Positions 51,985-58,153 of a stretch of DNA of 64,000 bases are shown piece after piece (the first letter of the stretch is position 1; each line of letters begins with the position of its first letter). The notes below the pieces were generated by a model that saw only the letters and a list, made by a program, of their open reading frames with translations, was not told where the DNA came from and ran no database searches. Made by a program: the position numbers and the translations under genes. The stretch lies in the NCBI RefSeq assembly GCF_003217235.1, contig NZ_QJTF01000006.1, positions 1-64,000 of the forward strand, given 5' to 3'. The DNA is from Paramesorhizobium leguminum. GTDB taxonomy: Bacteria > Pseudomonadota > Alphaproteobacteria > Rhizobiales > Rhizobiaceae.

Positions 51985-52162
51985 ACGGACAAGAAAGTTG
52001 AACTGGACGATGCGGAATTCCGTCCCATTTCTTGGGAATATGGCTTCGCTGGCATCGTTTAAACCGGTATACGGCCTATGTAGATTCTGACCTTCGTTGC
52101 CCTGATTAACTGCTTCGTGAACTTGGGATTCCCAAGGTTGCTTCAAATATACAGAGATTAAG

Positions 52163-53356
52163 ATGCTGAATCATTTTAAGCGGGATACCCGTATCGACGT
52201 ATTCAGGGCGCTGGCGCTGCTGACGATCTTCGTCAATCATGTGCCGGGTACGATCTATGAACATCTGACCCATAAGAACCTGGGGTTCTCGGATGCCGCC
52301 GAAGCCTTCGTGCTGATTTCCGGGATCGCGGTGGGGCTCGCCTATGGGACCAAGTTCCAACCGGGCAATCGTCTTCTGACCGGGCTGAAGATGTGGCGGC
52401 GGGCGGGAGTGCTTTATACCACGCACATCATGACCACCATGGCGACGCTTGCCATCTTTGCCGGCACGGCGATCTTCCTCAAGCGGCCGGAGTTCCTGTC
52501 GCAGATCAATATCCAGCCCGTGATGAAACATCCGGTAGAGGCGTTGTTCGGCATCGTCACGCTAGGCCATCAGCTTGGTTATAATAATATTCTCTCGATG
52601 TATGCGGTGCTTCTGCTGATGACGCCGGCATTTCTTCTTCTGGCGCGCCTAAGCCTCGGGCTGATGGTGGGCGTTTCAGGCGTATTCTGGCTTCTGGCGG
52701 GCATCTACCAAATCGCGCCTCACAATTATCCGACTTCCGGATTCTGGTTCCTCAATCCGCTTTCCTGGCAGTTCCTGTTCGTCATAGGCATCGCGGGGAC
52801 CGTGCATGTTCGCCGGGGCGGACGCATTCCGGCCTATCCCTGGCTGATAGGCGCTTCCGCTGCCTATCTCCTGCTCGCGCTCGTATGGGTGCGGCTGCCA
52901 TTGTGGGGTGTCGACCCTTCGATGGGGCTGCCGGCGGTCCTGACGGGATTCGACAAGACGTTTCTTTCAATGCCTCGACTGCTACATGTGCTGGCGGCAA
53001 GCTATATTATCGTCGCGGTCCCGGCGATTTCCAATCTCGCGCGCACGGCGCCCGACCATCCGCTGGCGATCCTCGGCAGGCATTCGCTGCCGGTCTTCAT
53101 CGCAGGCACGATCCTTGCGATGGTCGCGCAGGTGATGAAGCTCATCAATCCAGGTGGTCTTCCCTATGACACGCTGCTGATCGCCACCGGAATCGTCGTG
53201 CAGTTCGCACTCGCCTATTATCTGGAATGGCTGCCGCGCATCGGTTGGGGTGGAAAAACTGCAGCGAAAGCCGCTCCCGTCCAAGCCCAGGAGAGACCTG
53301 CCCAAGCACACGGTGCGGGGATGAAGCCGGGATTTCAGCCTGTCTTGAGCCTGTAA
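52163..53356 (+). CDS. opgC: OpgC-family acyltransferase
   Basis: 397-aa integral membrane protein with about ten helices, matching OpgC (PF10129): RDTRIDVFRALALLTIFVNH at about 5-24 and FVLISGIAVGLAYG at about 50-63. OpgC adds succinyl groups to periplasmic glucans in enterobacteria; in Rhizobiales homologues modify cyclic glucans. The C-terminal ~30 residues are a hydrophilic Ala/Gln-rich tail. Followed by the candidate sRNA. Confidence 0.9.
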   Translation: MLNHFKRDTRIDVFRALALLTIFVNHVPGTIYEHLTHKNLGFSDAAEAFVLISGIAVGLAYGTKFQPGNRLLTGLKMWRRAGVLYTTHIMTTMATLAIFAGTAIFLKRPEFLSQINIQPVMKHPVEALFGIVTLGHQLGYNNILSMYAVLLLMTPAFLLLARLSLGLMVGVSGVFWLLAGIYQIAPHNYPTSGFWFLNPLSWQFLFVIGIAGTVHVRRGGRIPAYPWLIGASAAYLLLALVWVRLPLWGVDPSMGLPAVLTGFDKTFLSMPRLLHVLAASYIIVAVPAISNLARTAPDHPLAILGRHSLPVFIAGTILAMVAQVMKLINPGGLPYDTLLIATGIVVQFALAYYLEWLPRIGWGGKTAAKAAPVQAQERPAQAHGAGMKPGFQPVLSL

Positions 53357-53447
53357 GCCGATTTCATGCAATGAAAGTGGGGCCGCGAAAACGGGGCCGT
53401 GAAAGCTGGCGGGATTAACCGTTCATTAAGGATAAGCGTATTAAATG

Positions 53448-53549
53448 GTTGATATCCAGTTTTCCTGGATACTTACCGAGTGGTTTCGCCACTCTGTTTG
53501 ACGCCTCCCTGTTAAACTCCTGAGAGCCGCTTTCGCGGCTCTTTTTTTG
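53448..53549 (+). ncRNA. Candidate trans-acting sRNA with unpaired anti-Shine-Dalgarno
   Basis: Three stem-loops: TATCCAG/CTGGATA (53453-53471), GAGTGG/CCACTC (53478-53494), then an unpaired linker with CCTCCC at 53504-53509, and a Rho-independent terminator AGAGCCGC/GCGGCTCT (53523-53542) followed by seven T. This layout is typical of Rhizobiales trans-sRNAs (alpha-r families) that block ribosome sites. The 5' end is a guess; the promoter is not clear, so it could also be processed from the opgC 3' UTR. Confidence 0.65.
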
Positions 53550-53734
53550 TTCACAATTTTGTGGGAATGCGCAGATTGCGTTAACCCTTTCTTAAACATA
53601 TTCTTGCGTCGCGGTGTATAGCAATGCAGTTTGCAGTGGGATTCATGCCAAGGCCTGTTTCGCCCATCGCCGGTTCGTGATCGAACCCTCGGAAATGGGT
53701 TCGGATGGGCCCGATTCTAAGATTGCTTATCCGC

Positions 53735-53777
53735 ATGATCCTATCCAAAAAGCTGGTCAACTTTTTGGGGGTCATGC
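53735..53777. repeat. Repeat family F, diverged single copy
   Basis: ATGATCCTATCCAAAAAGCT GGTCAACTTTTTGGGGGTCATGC; same scheme as at 12634. Confidence 0.8.
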
Positions 53778-53827
53778 TCAGGAGATACTGCCTGAAACAA
53801 CGGCAGTGTGGGGTTGCGAAGACGATC

Positions 53828-54343
53828 ATGATCGAACACGAATACCGGAATAATACCATAAGGCTGGCTGAGCGCGTCGTTTTCTCCGATTCGTTCAAAC
53901 CGCTTTACAGGGAGGGGATGAGTCTGGTCGAGGAAGCGGCTGCTTACCTCGACGGTCCGGGCCGCGACGAAGCAAAAATGCTGCCACGCTCCGCAACGCC
54001 GTTTTATGCCGCCGAGTCCATGCGGCTGACGACGCGCCTCATGCAGATCGCATCCTGGCTTCTCCTTCAGCGCGCTGCCCGCAACGGCGAACTGACCCGA
54101 CAGCAAGTGGCGATGGAGAAGGCCAAGGTTCGTCTCGATACATCTTCAGCGGCGGAAGCACTGCCGGGCTGGGCGCAAATGCCGGCGGATTTCATCGATA
54201 TCGTCGAACGCTCGCTGCGCCTGCAGGAGCGGATTAGGCGCATGGATGACGAGGTCTATGGCGCGCCAGGCATTTCCGGCGTGGCCGGCAATCCGGTATC
54301 GGATCAGCTGGTGCTGCTGCAGACGGCCTTTGGTGGACGGTAA
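53828..54343 (+). CDS. DUF1465 family protein
   Basis: 171-aa alphaproteobacterial protein matching DUF1465: LAERVVFSDSFKPLYREGM at about 13-31, then a helical core AESMRLTTRLMQIASWLLLQ at about 62-81. Function unknown; it is consistently found near ruvC and the cell-envelope genes. The start at 53828 is set by family length; upstream is a repeat. A possible regulatory RNA element follows before ruvC. Confidence 0.88.
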   Translation: MIEHEYRNNTIRLAERVVFSDSFKPLYREGMSLVEEAAAYLDGPGRDEAKMLPRSATPFYAAESMRLTTRLMQIASWLLLQRAARNGELTRQQVAMEKAKVRLDTSSAAEALPGWAQMPADFIDIVERSLRLQERIRRMDDEVYGAPGISGVAGNPVSDQLVLLQTAFGGR

Positions 54344-54401
54344 ACCCGTTTGGGCTTGCGCCGCGCCTTGAAATCGTTGGGTGTCGTGGTAATATCCTAA
54401 G

Positions 54402-54555
54402 AAGGAGGTGAGACGATCTTCCTTTACCGGAGGGACCGGGCCGAAGCCCGATCCCAATGTGCTTACTTAATTTTGCTGACAGTCAGGGTGAACCGCCAAG
54501 TCGTTAACCTGATAATCAGCGTAAGCCCGGTTTTCTTCAATCGTCTCACCTCCTT
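54402..54555. promoter_or_regulatory. 16-bp inverted repeat with SD and anti-SD arms
   Basis: AAGGAGGTGAGACGAT at 54402-54417 and its exact complement ATCGTCTCACCTCCTT at 54540-54555, 122 bases apart. Each strand carries a perfect AAGGAGGTGA with an ATC (plus, 54416) or ATT (minus, 54541) codon 7 bases after GGAGG. The plus frame is open about 66 codons to 54616, and the minus frame 24 codons to 54467. A CGGGC-CGAA-GCCCG hairpin sits inside. It may be a structured regulatory RNA, leaderless-type small ORFs, or a MITE-like element; no function is claimed. Confidence 0.6.
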
Positions 54556-54716
54556 TCATTTGCCGGATCGAAATCCGGCGACGCGATCATATCCAAATCG
54601 TCTTCAAAGCAAATAGAGATGGTTGTAACGCGTAGAAAATTTCTACTCGCTATTTTGTTTCTCTTTTGTTCACATTTCTGCTGTCAAGTGCGCCTTGCAA
54701 ACGGTAAGGTCGGCAC

Positions 54717-55226
54717 ATGAGAGAAGCGATTCGGATTATCGGTATTGACCCGGGCTTGAGACGGACGGGCTGGGGCGTGGTGGAGACGCTTGGCAACTCG
54801 CTGCGCTTCATTGCTTCCGGCACGGTCAAATCCGACGACAAGATGGATCTTGCTTCCAGGCTTTGTCAGTTGCATGAGGGGCTTTCCGCGGTTTTGCACA
54901 GCCATATGCCGCATGAGGCGGCCGTGGAGCATACATTCGTCAACAAGGATGCTACCGCCACGCTGAAGCTTGGTCAGGCACGCGGCATCGCCATGCTTGT
55001 GCCGGCGCAGGCTGGCTTGAGCGTCGCTGAATATGCGCCGAATGCGGTCAAGAAGGCAGTGATCGGCGTCGGGCATGGCGAGAAGCAGCAGATCCACATG
55101 ATGGTCAAGGTTTTGATGCCTAAGGCCACCTTTGAGGGTAACGATGCCGCCGATGCGCTGGCCATCGCCATCTGTCACGCCCATAACAGGCAAAGTATCA
55201 CCGGGAGGCTCGCGCAAATCGCATGA
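54717..55226 (+). CDS. ruvC: Crossover-junction endodeoxyribonuclease RuvC
   Basis: 169-aa Holliday-junction resolvase. RNase-H-like acidic residues D11 ([12 protein letters not shown]), E71 (AAVEHTF), D143 and D147 ([12 protein letters not shown]) are present. The stop overlaps the ruvA ATG (ATGA), so it is translationally coupled. First gene of ruvCAB, the resolvase-branch migration complex. Confidence 0.96.
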
Positions 55227-55840
55227 TCGGCAAGCTCAAGGGAACGGTCGATGAGATCGACGAGGATCATGTCATTATCGATGTGCATGGCGTCGGTTAT
55301 GTCGCCTATTGCTCGACGCGGACGCTCGGCAATCTGCCTGGTGTGGGCGAGGCGGCGACGCTCTTCATCGAGACCTATGTCCGCGAGGACATGATCCGGC
55401 TTTATGGCTTCGCCTCCCATCTGGAACGCGAGTGGTTTCGTTTGTTGCAAAATGTGCAAGGTGTGGGCGCGAAGGTGGCGCTCGCGGTGCTTGGCACGCT
55501 GACGCCGTCGGAACTCGCCAATGCCATCGCGCTGCGCGATCTCGCCATGGTCAGCCGCGCGCCTGGTGTCGGCAAGAAGGTGGCGGAGCGGATCGTCACC
55601 GAATTGAAGAACAAGGCTCCGGCTTTCGCCGGCGAAGCGTCCGGCACCATCGGGCTGAAGCAAGAGCTGGGCGAAGGGGTAGCTCCCGCGCCCGTCGCCG
55701 ATGCGGTTTCGGCACTCAGCAATCTCGGCTATTCGCGCGACCAGGCGGCCAATGCGGTTGCGGCGGCGCTGAAGCAGGCGGGAGAGGATGCCGATTCCGC
55801 GAAACTCATCCGGCTTGGGCTGAAGGAACTGGCGCGGTGA
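55223..55840 (+). CDS. ruvA: Holliday-junction DNA-binding protein RuvA
   Basis: 205-aa tetramer-forming protein that holds the junction. OB-fold N domain [20 protein letters not shown], helix-hairpin-helix modules ([30 protein letters not shown]) and C-terminal domain that contacts RuvB ([16 protein letters not shown]). Overlaps ruvC and lies 7 bases before ruvB. Confidence 0.96.
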
Positions 55841-55847
55841 GAATGGC

Positions 55848-56888
55848 ATGAACGATAGCAACCGCCTGATATCTCCCGACAAGCGCGGCGAGGATGTCGA
55901 CAACACGCTGCGGCCGCAATCGCTTGACGATTTCGTCGGGCAGGCGGCGGCGCGGGCCAATCTGAAAGTGTTCATCGAGGCGGCGCGGACGCGCGGCGAG
56001 GCGCTCGACCATGTGCTTTTCGTCGGACCGCCCGGCCTTGGCAAGACCACGCTGGCGCAGATCATGGCGAAGGAGCTGGGCGCTAATTTCCGCTCGACCT
56101 CCGGTCCGGTCATCGCCAAGGCCGGCGATCTGGCTGCGCTCCTGACCAATCTCGAAGACCGGGATGTGCTGTTCATTGACGAGATCCACCGGCTCAACCC
56201 GGCGGTGGAGGAAATCCTCTATCCGGCGATGGAAGATTTCCAGCTCGACCTCATCATCGGCGAAGGACCGGCGGCGCGGTCGGTGAAGATCGATCTCGCC
56301 CGCTTCACGCTTGTCGCCGCGACCACCCGCCTTGGCCTTTTGACCACGCCGCTGCGTGATCGCTTCGGCATTCCCGTGCGGCTCAATTTCTATACGGTGC
56401 CGGAGCTTGAGCATATCGTGCGGCGCGGCGCGCGGATCATGCAACTGGGCATTTCGGATGACGGTGCACTGGAGATCGCGCGGCGCGCGCGCGGTACGCC
56501 GCGCATCGCCGGGCGGCTGTTGCGGCGGGTGCGCGACTTTGCGCTTGTGGCTCGGGCCGATACCGTCAACCGCAAGATAGCCGACGAGGCGCTTTTGCGG
56601 CTTGAGGTTGACAGCATCGGCCTCGACCAGCTCGACCGGCGCTATCTCGACATGATCGCCCGGAATTTCGGTGGCGGTCCGGTCGGCATCGAAACCATCG
56701 CCGCCGGCCTTTCCGAGCCGCGCGATGCGATCGAGGATATCATCGAGCCCTATCTCATCCAGCAGGGCTTCATCCAGCGCACCCCGCGCGGGCGCGTGCT
56801 GACCGTCAACGCATGGCGGCATCTGGGACTAACCGCGCCGTCCGATCTTGCGCAAACGCAGATCGGGCTATTTCAGGATGACGATTGA
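55848..56888 (+). CDS. ruvB: Holliday-junction helicase RuvB
   Basis: 346-aa AAA+ motor. Walker [10 protein letters not shown] at 60-68, Walker [10 protein letters not shown] at about 108-116, sensor [16 protein letters not shown] at about 160-175, and C-terminal winged helix ending [14 protein letters not shown]. Seven bases after ruvA; last gene of ruvCAB. Convergent with GH5, 14 bases away. Confidence 0.97.
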
Positions 56889-56902
56889 CCTCTGTGGGGT
56901 AG

Positions 56903-58153
56903 CTATTTCAGCCCCAGCCCTTTCAGGATAAGGGGGTCCAATATGCGGTTCTTGTCATCGTTGGTGATGCCGAAGGCGCCGCCCCATGACCAGACGGCCC
57001 AAGCATATCCGTAGCGCTCCGATAGTGTGGTGATGTCGTGCAGATAGGCGGCGCGCCATTGCGAGGGCATACGATAAGGATTGCCATCTTCCTGCCGGAT
57101 CATGCCGAACTCGCCCAAGAAGATATCTTCCTTTGGGATGCCATATTTTGCAGCCCATGCCGCAACCGTCTTGAAGGGCGCTTCGATGACGTTGGAGAGC
57201 TTTTCCGGCGTATCGATCTCGGCATATTGCTCATCGAGATAGGCCAGCAGTCCGATGCGTCGCATCAGGGGCGCCTTTTCTTCGATGCGTTGACGTATTT
57301 CTTCGAGGGTTCTCTCCCGTTCGGCTGGCGGGACACTATAGGGCGGATAGGGGAGGCCGGTAACGTAGCGGATGAAATCGCCCGCCCATAGCGCGCCCTG
57401 ATGCGTCAACAGAAAAGGGCCATAGGTATGGAAACTCCAGATGATATTGTCGTCGGGAATATCGCGTGGGTCTACCCGTGCCAGCGCCTCCGCCTTGCCC
57501 CAGCATCCGCCTGAAAGTACCAAGGTCAAATTTGTGGCAGAGGCGCGCGCGGCGGCGAAAAGCTGCCGCAGCATTCCCGGCCAGCGAGGGGAGGATGTCG
57601 CATCGCAATCGACGACAGGCTCGTTCATCAACTCGAACGCAATTTTATCCGGCGCTTCCCTAGAAAGGGTGCGGCCCATAGTGCGGACAACATCCAGATA
57701 GCGCTCGAAAAGAGCCGGGTCGGCCATGACATTGGTCATGCTGACGCTGCGTTCCGTAGGGAAGAGATGGAGATCGACAACCGCGTTCAATCCGGCTTCA
57801 TTGACCAGGTGGGCGGATTGCAACACGCTTTCATAAAGCTTGTCGCGGAAGATGATTGTCTTATCGGATAGGAATGGGGCGGGGTCGACCGGAATGCGGA
57901 CGAAATCGAACCCGGCCTGTTTCAGCGCGGCCAAATCCTGTGGCTCAAGGCTCTTGCGCCATTCCGGGTAGGGCAGGAGCACGCTTTCGTCGTTCCAGCG
58001 GCTTTCGTCTGGCCAGGTGGTCCATATATCGAGATTGACGCCGCGCTTCATTTTGAACGTCGCGGCGGCAGCGGGCATGGCGAACGCCACGGCGAGCGCC
58101 AGAGCGGGGAATAGCGGTTTCTTCAGCTTGAACATGGCGGCCAAGAGTGTCAT
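56903..58153 (-). CDS. Glycoside hydrolase family 5 (secreted)
   Basis: 416-aa TIM-barrel hydrolase with a signal peptide at about 1-31. The acid/base is E178 in FELMNEPV; the nucleophile is E348 in FLGEFGM. KRGVNLDIW and SFHTYGPF are typical GH5 elements. It cleaves beta-linked glycans in periplasm or outside; exact specificity unknown. An alternative ATG at 58135 would still leave a signal peptide. Only 33 bases separate it from divergent ybgC. Confidence 0.87.
   Translation of the reverse strand: MTLLAAMFKLKKPLFPALALAVAFAMPAAAATFKMKRGVNLDIWTTWPDESRWNDESVLLPYPEWRKSLEPQDLAALKQAGFDFVRIPVDPAPFLSDKTIIFRDKLYESVLQSAHLVNEAGLNAVVDLHLFPTERSVSMTNVMADPALFERYLDVVRTMGRTLSREAPDKIAFELMNEPVVDCDATSSPRWPGMLRQLFAAARASATNLTLVLSGGCWGKAEALARVDPRDIPDDNIIWSFHTYGPFLLTHQGALWAGDFIRYVTGLPYPPYSVPPAERERTLEEIRQRIEEKAPLMRRIGLLAYLDEQYAEIDTPEKLSNVIEAPFKTVAAWAAKYGIPKEDIFLGEFGMIRQEDGNPYRMPSQWRAAYLHDITTLSERYGYAWAVWSWGGAFGITNDDKNRILDPLILKGLGLK

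Follow-up and report, generated by a model that had tools for sequence, protein, structure and literature searches.

A hidden peptide gene inside an inverted repeat upstream of ruvC in Paramesorhizobium leguminum probably represents a new type I toxin–antitoxin-like family of phage origin

Why should a Shine–Dalgarno (SD) sequence and its complement, the anti-SD, face one another as the perfect arms of an inverted repeat? The question is raised by an element at positions 54402–54555 of a 64 000 nt stretch of Paramesorhizobium leguminum DNA (contig NZ_QJTF01000006.1, positions 1–64 000; hereafter the window), which lies between a DUF1465 open reading frame (ORF) ending at 54343 and the genes ruvC and ruvA. 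The two arms, at 54402–54417 and 54540–54555, are each 16 nt long, 100 % complementary and 122 nt apart, contain AAGGAGGTGA and TCACCTCCTT (SD and anti-SD), and form the only inverted repeat of at least 12 nt reported within 54200–54800. The plus-strand fold of 54390–54570 has a free energy of −77.3 kcal/mol (z = −6.8), with none of 200 shuffles equally stable, and because the same arms recur across a family of related units, the inverted repeat is not a product of chance. An earlier interpretation, made from the letters of this DNA (the sequence-only reading), had recognised the arms correctly, and had offered an IF3-sensing small ORF, a ribosome-titrating RNA or a small element with terminal inverted repeats as their explanation. 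The observation stands, whilst the explanation shifts: judged from sequence, the element is most likely a conserved peptide gene accompanied by a likely antisense RNA, the two forming a new type I-like family of phage origin.

The peptide gene, which the sequence-only reading overlooked, occupies 54463–54540 on the minus strand. It begins with TTG at 54540, runs for 25 codons to a TAA stop and encodes LKKTGLTLIIRLTTWRFTLTVSKIK (residue 1 read as Met), the proposed toxin, with the 5′ arm of this strand (54540–54555, −) supplying the SD AAGGAGG at a spacing of 8 nt from the start. By way of the two arms, an identical SD is present on both strands, providing a natural control for strand choice: in 32 of 32 units defined by arms only, TTG or GTG occurs 8 nt past GGAGG on a single strand, in no case on both. 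This set was first stored only where a start codon lay at 8 nt; an unfiltered recount again yielded 32 units, none of them lacking such a start. When nine divergent units found by covariance model are added, 36 of the resulting 41 harbour an SD, a start and an ORF of 18–30 aa on the chosen strand, the start always being at 8 nt (29 TTG, 7 GTG), whilst the opposite strand contains any such ORF in two of the 41, at other spacings. A small ORF shorter than some 60 codons and preceded by an SD of its own, which is one criterion for type I toxin–antitoxin systems, is present in these 36 units and in the window.

Amongst relatives, MKIRLTLTIRFRTWRFTLTIS and MKIRVTVIVSLFGWRLTLTISR are typical peptides (first residue given as M), and alternate positions retain their hydrophobic class through substitutions. 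The ratio of non-synonymous to synonymous differences (pN/pS) was determined for 26 distinct ORFs, with the window, L002 and L009_-1676 excluded for their different length (labels in L and G denote loci and genomes, respectively), and with L009_-1987, L015, L047, L080 and divergent units with arms off the pattern also left aside. Across 48 close pairs it is 0.41 in frame, whilst the two remaining forward frames give 1.05 and 5.44; at a divergence cut of 0.25 the corresponding values are 0.48 in frame, 0.88 and 2.54 forward, and 0.87, 0.67 and 1.83 in reverse. A separate set of 25 ORFs gives a pooled pN/pS of 0.81. Decayed copies of the ORF also occur, with a frameshift in L015, a lost stop in L027 and a truncation in L080.

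With regard to the arms themselves, the compensatory changes that the sequence-only reading had suggested looking for are present. In an alignment (A4) of 29 units, chosen from 41 by thinning near-identical members, 94.9 % of cells are paired, falling to 37–49 % in slid controls, and 16 of 25 pairs have changed on both sides. These include seven of the 13 pairs of the closing stem, formed with the 3′ arm of the peptide strand (54402–54417, −; anti-SD CACCTCCTT), and five of the seven pairs of helix 2, a GC-rich hairpin between the ORF stop and the anti-SD (54432–54455, −). Four of five covariation measures are reached by none of 500 shuffles and the fifth, which concerns further pair types, by 26 of them, counts that kinship amongst the units inflates. 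Arms of 9 bp or more are present in 52 of 54 units, and there are 30 distinct arm pairs, including AAGGGGGTGATGTT, GAAAGGAAGGTGA, AGGAGGTGGAGAGC and AGGAGGTGATGCGC, each with its complement.

The sequence-only reading had held that pairing of the arms would hide the SD on the plus strand. Such masking is indeed predicted, but the SD leading into the ORF sits on the minus-strand mRNA. In folded peptide mRNAs the probability that the SD is unpaired is 0.015 at full length and 0.47 once 30 nt are removed from the 3′ end, and in 35 of 40 units this trimming raises SD opening by more than 0.2. A further type I criterion, an SD hidden by pairing in the primary transcript, is in this way predicted for the family.

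The strand opposite the peptide gene appears to carry its own promoter. A scan of 54340–54730 with a fixed consensus returned a single promoter-like site (0.3 expected), TTGAAA-N16-TAATAT at 54368–54395 (+), in which TGG precedes the −10 box (extended −10) and from which transcription is predicted to start near 54402, where the plus-strand 5′ arm begins. Across 32 units, the non-ORF strand likewise possesses TTGAAA-like and TATAAT-like boxes, spaced by 16 nt in 29 and by 17 nt in three, with TG ahead of the −10. Their mean score is 10.3 out of 13, whereas shuffles reach 6.5 ± 1.0 and the sequence ahead of the ORF 6.5; this score is partly circular, the −35 word TTGAAA having been derived from these same sequences, whilst the window scan used a fixed consensus. 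The putative antisense RNA, the proposed antitoxin, would extend over 54402–54557 (+), as judged with covariance models R1 and R2; the overlapping antisense gene expected of a type I system may be present, its promoter boxes being conserved on the opposite strand.

The family is distributed patchily. The window genome has a second copy (G000:C15), and three are present in G002, a genome of the same genus, as a tandem pair preceding ruvC and a single unit at another site. Related DUF1465–ruvC spacers, in which the sequence-only reading expected the arms to recur, give a mixed picture: in four of six same-genus genomes (the window's own being among the six) the spacer is short and lacks the element, and at the sensitivity used no copy was found elsewhere in these four. 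The element is no accident but an insert of patchy occurrence. Nucleotide BLAST (BLASTN) matched 12 of 394 family genomes, two of these (G134, G074) merely over 33 nt outside the arms, whilst model R1 matched 17 of 394 family and four of 297 order genomes at E up to 0.01, the window's own genome counting in both, and R2 matched 16 of 394 family genomes. A few weak or partial R1/R2 matches were dropped before units were counted: L051 (G174, partial), L052 (G036, a GC repeat by eye), L053 (G319), L110 (G279) and L115 (G281, partial). The middle of L053 and of L110 contains an SD-preceded ORF of similar pattern (SITLEVKKTRTGWQVTIRIFISH and SITLEMKRTRTGWQFTLRVQFSI, respectively), with no clear closing stem, and these two are possibly more distant relatives. 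The arm pattern retrieved 16 stretches in Shinella, Rhizobium, Chthonobacter, Pseudochelatococcus, Rhizobiales and Brucella endophytica; L122–L124 fit a looser arm pattern, lack the ORF and were set aside. Tandem arrays occur in G002, G222 (four units), G352 (two), Shinella granuli and Chthonobacter, the last with five copies on one contig.

Units on viral contigs, and others in phage-like settings, are accompanied by a further gene. At viral L119 and L120, in G010 and G437, and at two loci of the Bartonella-like G683, the ORF strand runs into an XRE-type helix–turn–helix gene that starts MTPDEFKAWRKSLGF or similarly (PF01381 was tested for L119 and L120) and, in phage or prophage-like copies, begins 15–24 nt past the 3′ arm. 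G010 has three copies, of which the two examined in context adjoin phage-tail-like ORFs (by eye). With the L119 protein as query, 26 viral XRE loci were retrieved, and a unit lies directly upstream in seven of them, the query's own contig included. A unit is likewise directly upstream of an XRE gene in the phage record MW202613.1 (L186, 19787–20243), where the annotated genes are on the other strand and both the XRE gene and the unit seem to have been missed. BLASTN and tblastn searches of phages and plasmids gave matches of at most 27–29 nt, which is a weak test given the shortness of the query. The antisense promoter boxes were scored in 14 XRE-coupled loci with a unit (L095 is not amongst them), where they fall within or next to the opening codons of the XRE gene and score 8–13, compared with 5–9 for seven XRE genes without a unit, taken from the 19 unit-less viral loci.

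Remains of the same gene can be recognised in the window. At 54355–54387 (−), overlapping the antisense promoter, the codons ACG ACA CCC AAC GAT TTC AAG GCG CGG CGC AAG read TTPNDFKARRK, an XRE helix–turn–helix start stub in which ATG has become ACG; its score of 35 is reached by none of 4100 shuffles, and phage-borne relatives have an intact gene at the same place. Five of 38 units without an adjacent intact XRE start, the window included, score at least 20, as do 0.7 % of shuffles. Some chromosomal units at least therefore resemble phage cassettes that have been domesticated, losing the XRE gene and retaining the promoter, and the remaining chromosomal units may share this origin.

Conservation of the ORF, choice of strand, covariation of the stem, conservation of the antisense boxes, residence on viral contigs, and the XRE coupling together with its stub all point to the same reading, which we regard as probable: a new family of type I toxin–antitoxin-like modules of phage origin, working in the manner of aapA/IsoA and encoding a cationic, beta-patterned peptide. 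The minus strand would give rise to a short mRNA encoding the cationic 25-residue peptide, and at full length this mRNA would have its SD locked in a 16 bp stem with its own 3′ end, such that the primary transcript is not translated. From the plus strand, the stronger promoter, which is conserved and lies towards the 3′ side, would drive an antisense RNA spanning the peptide mRNA, and pairing of the two would block translation and lead to RNase III decay. Any mRNA escaping this control would be trimmed at the 3′ end, opening the SD for a burst of the presumably toxic peptide. Phage copies would have the downstream XRE gene, with the antisense promoter held in its first codons, whilst chromosomal copies such as that of the window would have lost the gene, assuming that the change ran in this direction, and kept the promoter. 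A narrower version is put forward tentatively, in which the phage form is an addiction module of three parts: a micro-toxin that is cationic and beta-hairpin-like, an antisense RNA of full length, and an XRE repressor whose opening codons double as the antisense promoter. If correct, loss of the XRE gene would leave a self-standing two-part module in host chromosomes, and the family would be of type I with a beta-type peptide, a kind absent from the review passages available (PMC8309996).

The peptides tested have a net charge of +2 to +7 and a mean Eisenberg hydrophobicity of −0.04 to 0.19. In 16 of 16 the beta-type hydrophobic moment exceeds the alpha-type; compared with shuffled peptides, p < 0.05 is obtained for seven of the 16, the window peptide (p 0.32) not being one of these. 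With regard to homology with the aapA/IsoA peptides, one peptide searched against PDB sequences gave no matches, the peptides being too short for a firm test, and none of four peptides matched a profile in either Pfam or NCBIfam, a weak test at such length. The viral cassettes L164, L166 and L170 (at about 1300–1420) share stem, promoter boxes and XRE gene with the other units but encode another peptide, of 32–35 aa; the peptide may be exchangeable. The 32-residue L164-type peptide aligns poorly with the remaining peptides, most of which have fewer than 30 residues.

The Ldr/Rdl and Ibs/Sib systems of Escherichia coli resemble the unit in that a tiny peptide gene with an antisense RNA is repeated in tandem; they are not known to have an XRE gene. 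Their peptides are helical and membrane-bound according to the review passages, unlike that of the unit (PMC8309996). Closer in its working is aapA/IsoA of Helicobacter, a different bacterial class from the hosts of the unit, with a small peptide mRNA locked by long-distance 5′–3′ pairing of SD and anti-SD, an overlapping antisense RNA (here predicted) and several chromosomal copies (PMC6733600). The same source gives IsoA3 a length of 80 nt and a promoter −10 box inside the ORF, whereas the predicted antisense start of the unit is at the 3′ arm (PMC6733600), and AapA1 is described as an alpha-helical membrane peptide in contrast to the alternating beta-like pattern found here (PMC8309996). 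The TTG/GTG start and the phage XRE partner also set the unit apart. The sequence-only reading knew of no described family, and none was found: no Rfam covariance model matches the element at E up to 1 (searched over 52000–57000), and literature on type I toxin–antitoxin systems retrieved with alphaproteobacterial or rhizobial terms, judged largely by titles and abstracts, includes no title or abstract describing it. Peptide-coding small RNAs have been surveyed in species including Sinorhizobium meliloti (PMC5521070).

Several results weigh against the toxin–antitoxin interpretation. Across all 325 pairs pN/pS is 0.76 in frame, compared with 0.88 and 1.78 in the other forward frames and 0.90, 0.80 and 1.33 in reverse; given the value of 0.41 for close pairs, the coding signal is clear in close relatives and weak over the whole set. 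Five units (L027, L080, L061, L064 and L065) miss the ORF criteria, L061 solely through an SD word outside the search pattern, its ORF being otherwise seen. The stem statistics hold partly by construction, as 32 units were found by arm pattern and the others by structure model; because the arms were a search criterion for many units, and the units are related, the informative part is provided by families found by model or via XRE, in which the arms differ and still pair. L061 and L065 have no clear arms, and in five of 40 units SD opening upon trimming gains 0.2 or less. The scan used found no terminator on either strand of the window spacer, and regions upstream of the peptide strand average a background promoter score. 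The hydrophobic alpha-helical transmembrane segment that, in the review passages, marks membrane-associated type I toxins (PMC8309996) is absent from the peptides as assessed by hydrophobicity, charge and moments.

The position of the XRE gene invites another explanation, namely that the unit is a leader peptide or RNA switch controlling this downstream phage gene, with chromosomal copies as relics or reused. The short distance between the 3′ arm and the XRE start is as such a switch would have it, and Bartonella henselae Brt/trp (XRE) displays a similar layout of RNA followed by XRE gene, with a strongly folded multicopy RNA of 194–203 nt lying 10–18 nt before the gene (PMC5387305). Even so, this explanation is unlikely: 33 of the 38 units without an adjacent intact gene have no recognisable XRE start (score < 20) and five have a stub, yet ORF, stem and antisense boxes are still kept, and the stem masks the SD of the peptide and not that of the XRE gene (by eye). 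Nor is the unit filed here as a Brt RNA. Amongst five candidate Brt-like loci in four Bartonella-like genomes, whose identity with published Brt is putative, four are strongly folded and one has an unrelated 34-codon ORF, and none has an SD/anti-SD closing stem or a matching ORF. Model R2 matched two of 41 Bartonella-like genomes at E up to 1, namely G683, with two good copies and the only one below E 1e-10, and another at E 0.83 that looks like chance; by eye, XRE relatives in two further genomes have no unit upstream. As a separate observation, L134, L135, L138 and L142, from Bartonella-like genomes, contain RNAs with strong folding (the final ~215 nt reach −60 to −71 kcal/mol) that share a GCGAGGGCGCTCGC hairpin upstream of a helix–turn–helix gene of ~140–166 aa, and are possibly the published Brt RNAs.

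Should the plus strand instead be the business end of the element, it would be a trans-acting small RNA (sRNA) that uses its anti-SD arm to bind other mRNAs or ribosomes, with the ORF on the minus strand being secondary. The best-conserved promoter does belong to the plus strand, the anti-SD arm is one that we take to resemble the 3′ end of 16S rRNA, and in the closing stem plus-strand G-U-type cells outnumber A-C cells by 5 to 3 in our tally. The 16 bp stem, however, would lock that very arm; the start codon, frame and amino acid classes of the minus-strand ORF are conserved; and mismatches in the inner hairpin are mostly A-C on the plus strand, equivalent to G-U on the minus (16 versus 3 cells, which are related and non-independent). 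Overall, we consider a trans-acting sRNA improbable, and the ribosome-titrating RNA of the sequence-only reading is superfluous for explaining the data. The patchy and tandem distribution could suggest a small transposable or palindromic repeat with the arms as its terminal repeats, which we think very improbable: the arms differ amongst families by paired changes, and so behave as an RNA stem with compensatory substitutions rather than as transposon ends, and a promoter, an ORF and XRE coupling are unexpected of a simple repeat. Least credible of all is the IF3-sensing ORF with an ATC or ATT start, of which the small ORF survives and IF3 sensing has no basis: both codons do occur 7 nt past GGAGG in the window, but ATC, on the plus strand, is kept in one of 32 arm-defined units, and ATT, on the ORF strand and kept in 20 of 32, belongs to A-TTG, one base before the TTG or GTG conserved at 8 nt in all 32.

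As a type I-like module, the family offers a search rule, combining a long-distance SD/anti-SD stem, a fixed start spacing and an opposing extended −10 promoter. Finders based on hydrophobic helices could miss a peptide that is short, non-hydrophobic and started by TTG. The family also suggests phages as the likely source of the chromosomal copies, and allows one to ask directly whether type I toxins can include peptides with a beta pattern.

Further features accompany these units. The second copy in the window genome (L017, 4753–4931) and the third of G002 (L019, 917–1067; its ORF is out of the family frame) each adjoin an O-antigen ligase-like (Wzy_C) gene, and because of this shared neighbour the two may be orthologous. 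In the window, the predicted 5′ end of the peptide mRNA forms a hairpin, GCCGGAT...ATCCGGC (54562–54579, −), with both-side changes in relatives noted by eye and no tool count. A weak, tentative promoter-like site for this mRNA, TTTGCT-N16-TATGAT (54586–54613, −), was picked up by box score and is missing from the fixed-consensus scan; the palindrome GTAGAAAATTTCTAC at 54632–54646 adjoins it and could be an operator or belong to a terminator. Similar imperfect palindromes are seen by eye at about the matching position in both tandem units of G002. Elsewhere in the window, a weak suhB/mmgR match, under its gathering score, overlaps a match to the alphaproteobacterial sRNA BjrC1505 (RF02356; 73.5 bits, E 5e-13) at 53408–53548 (+).
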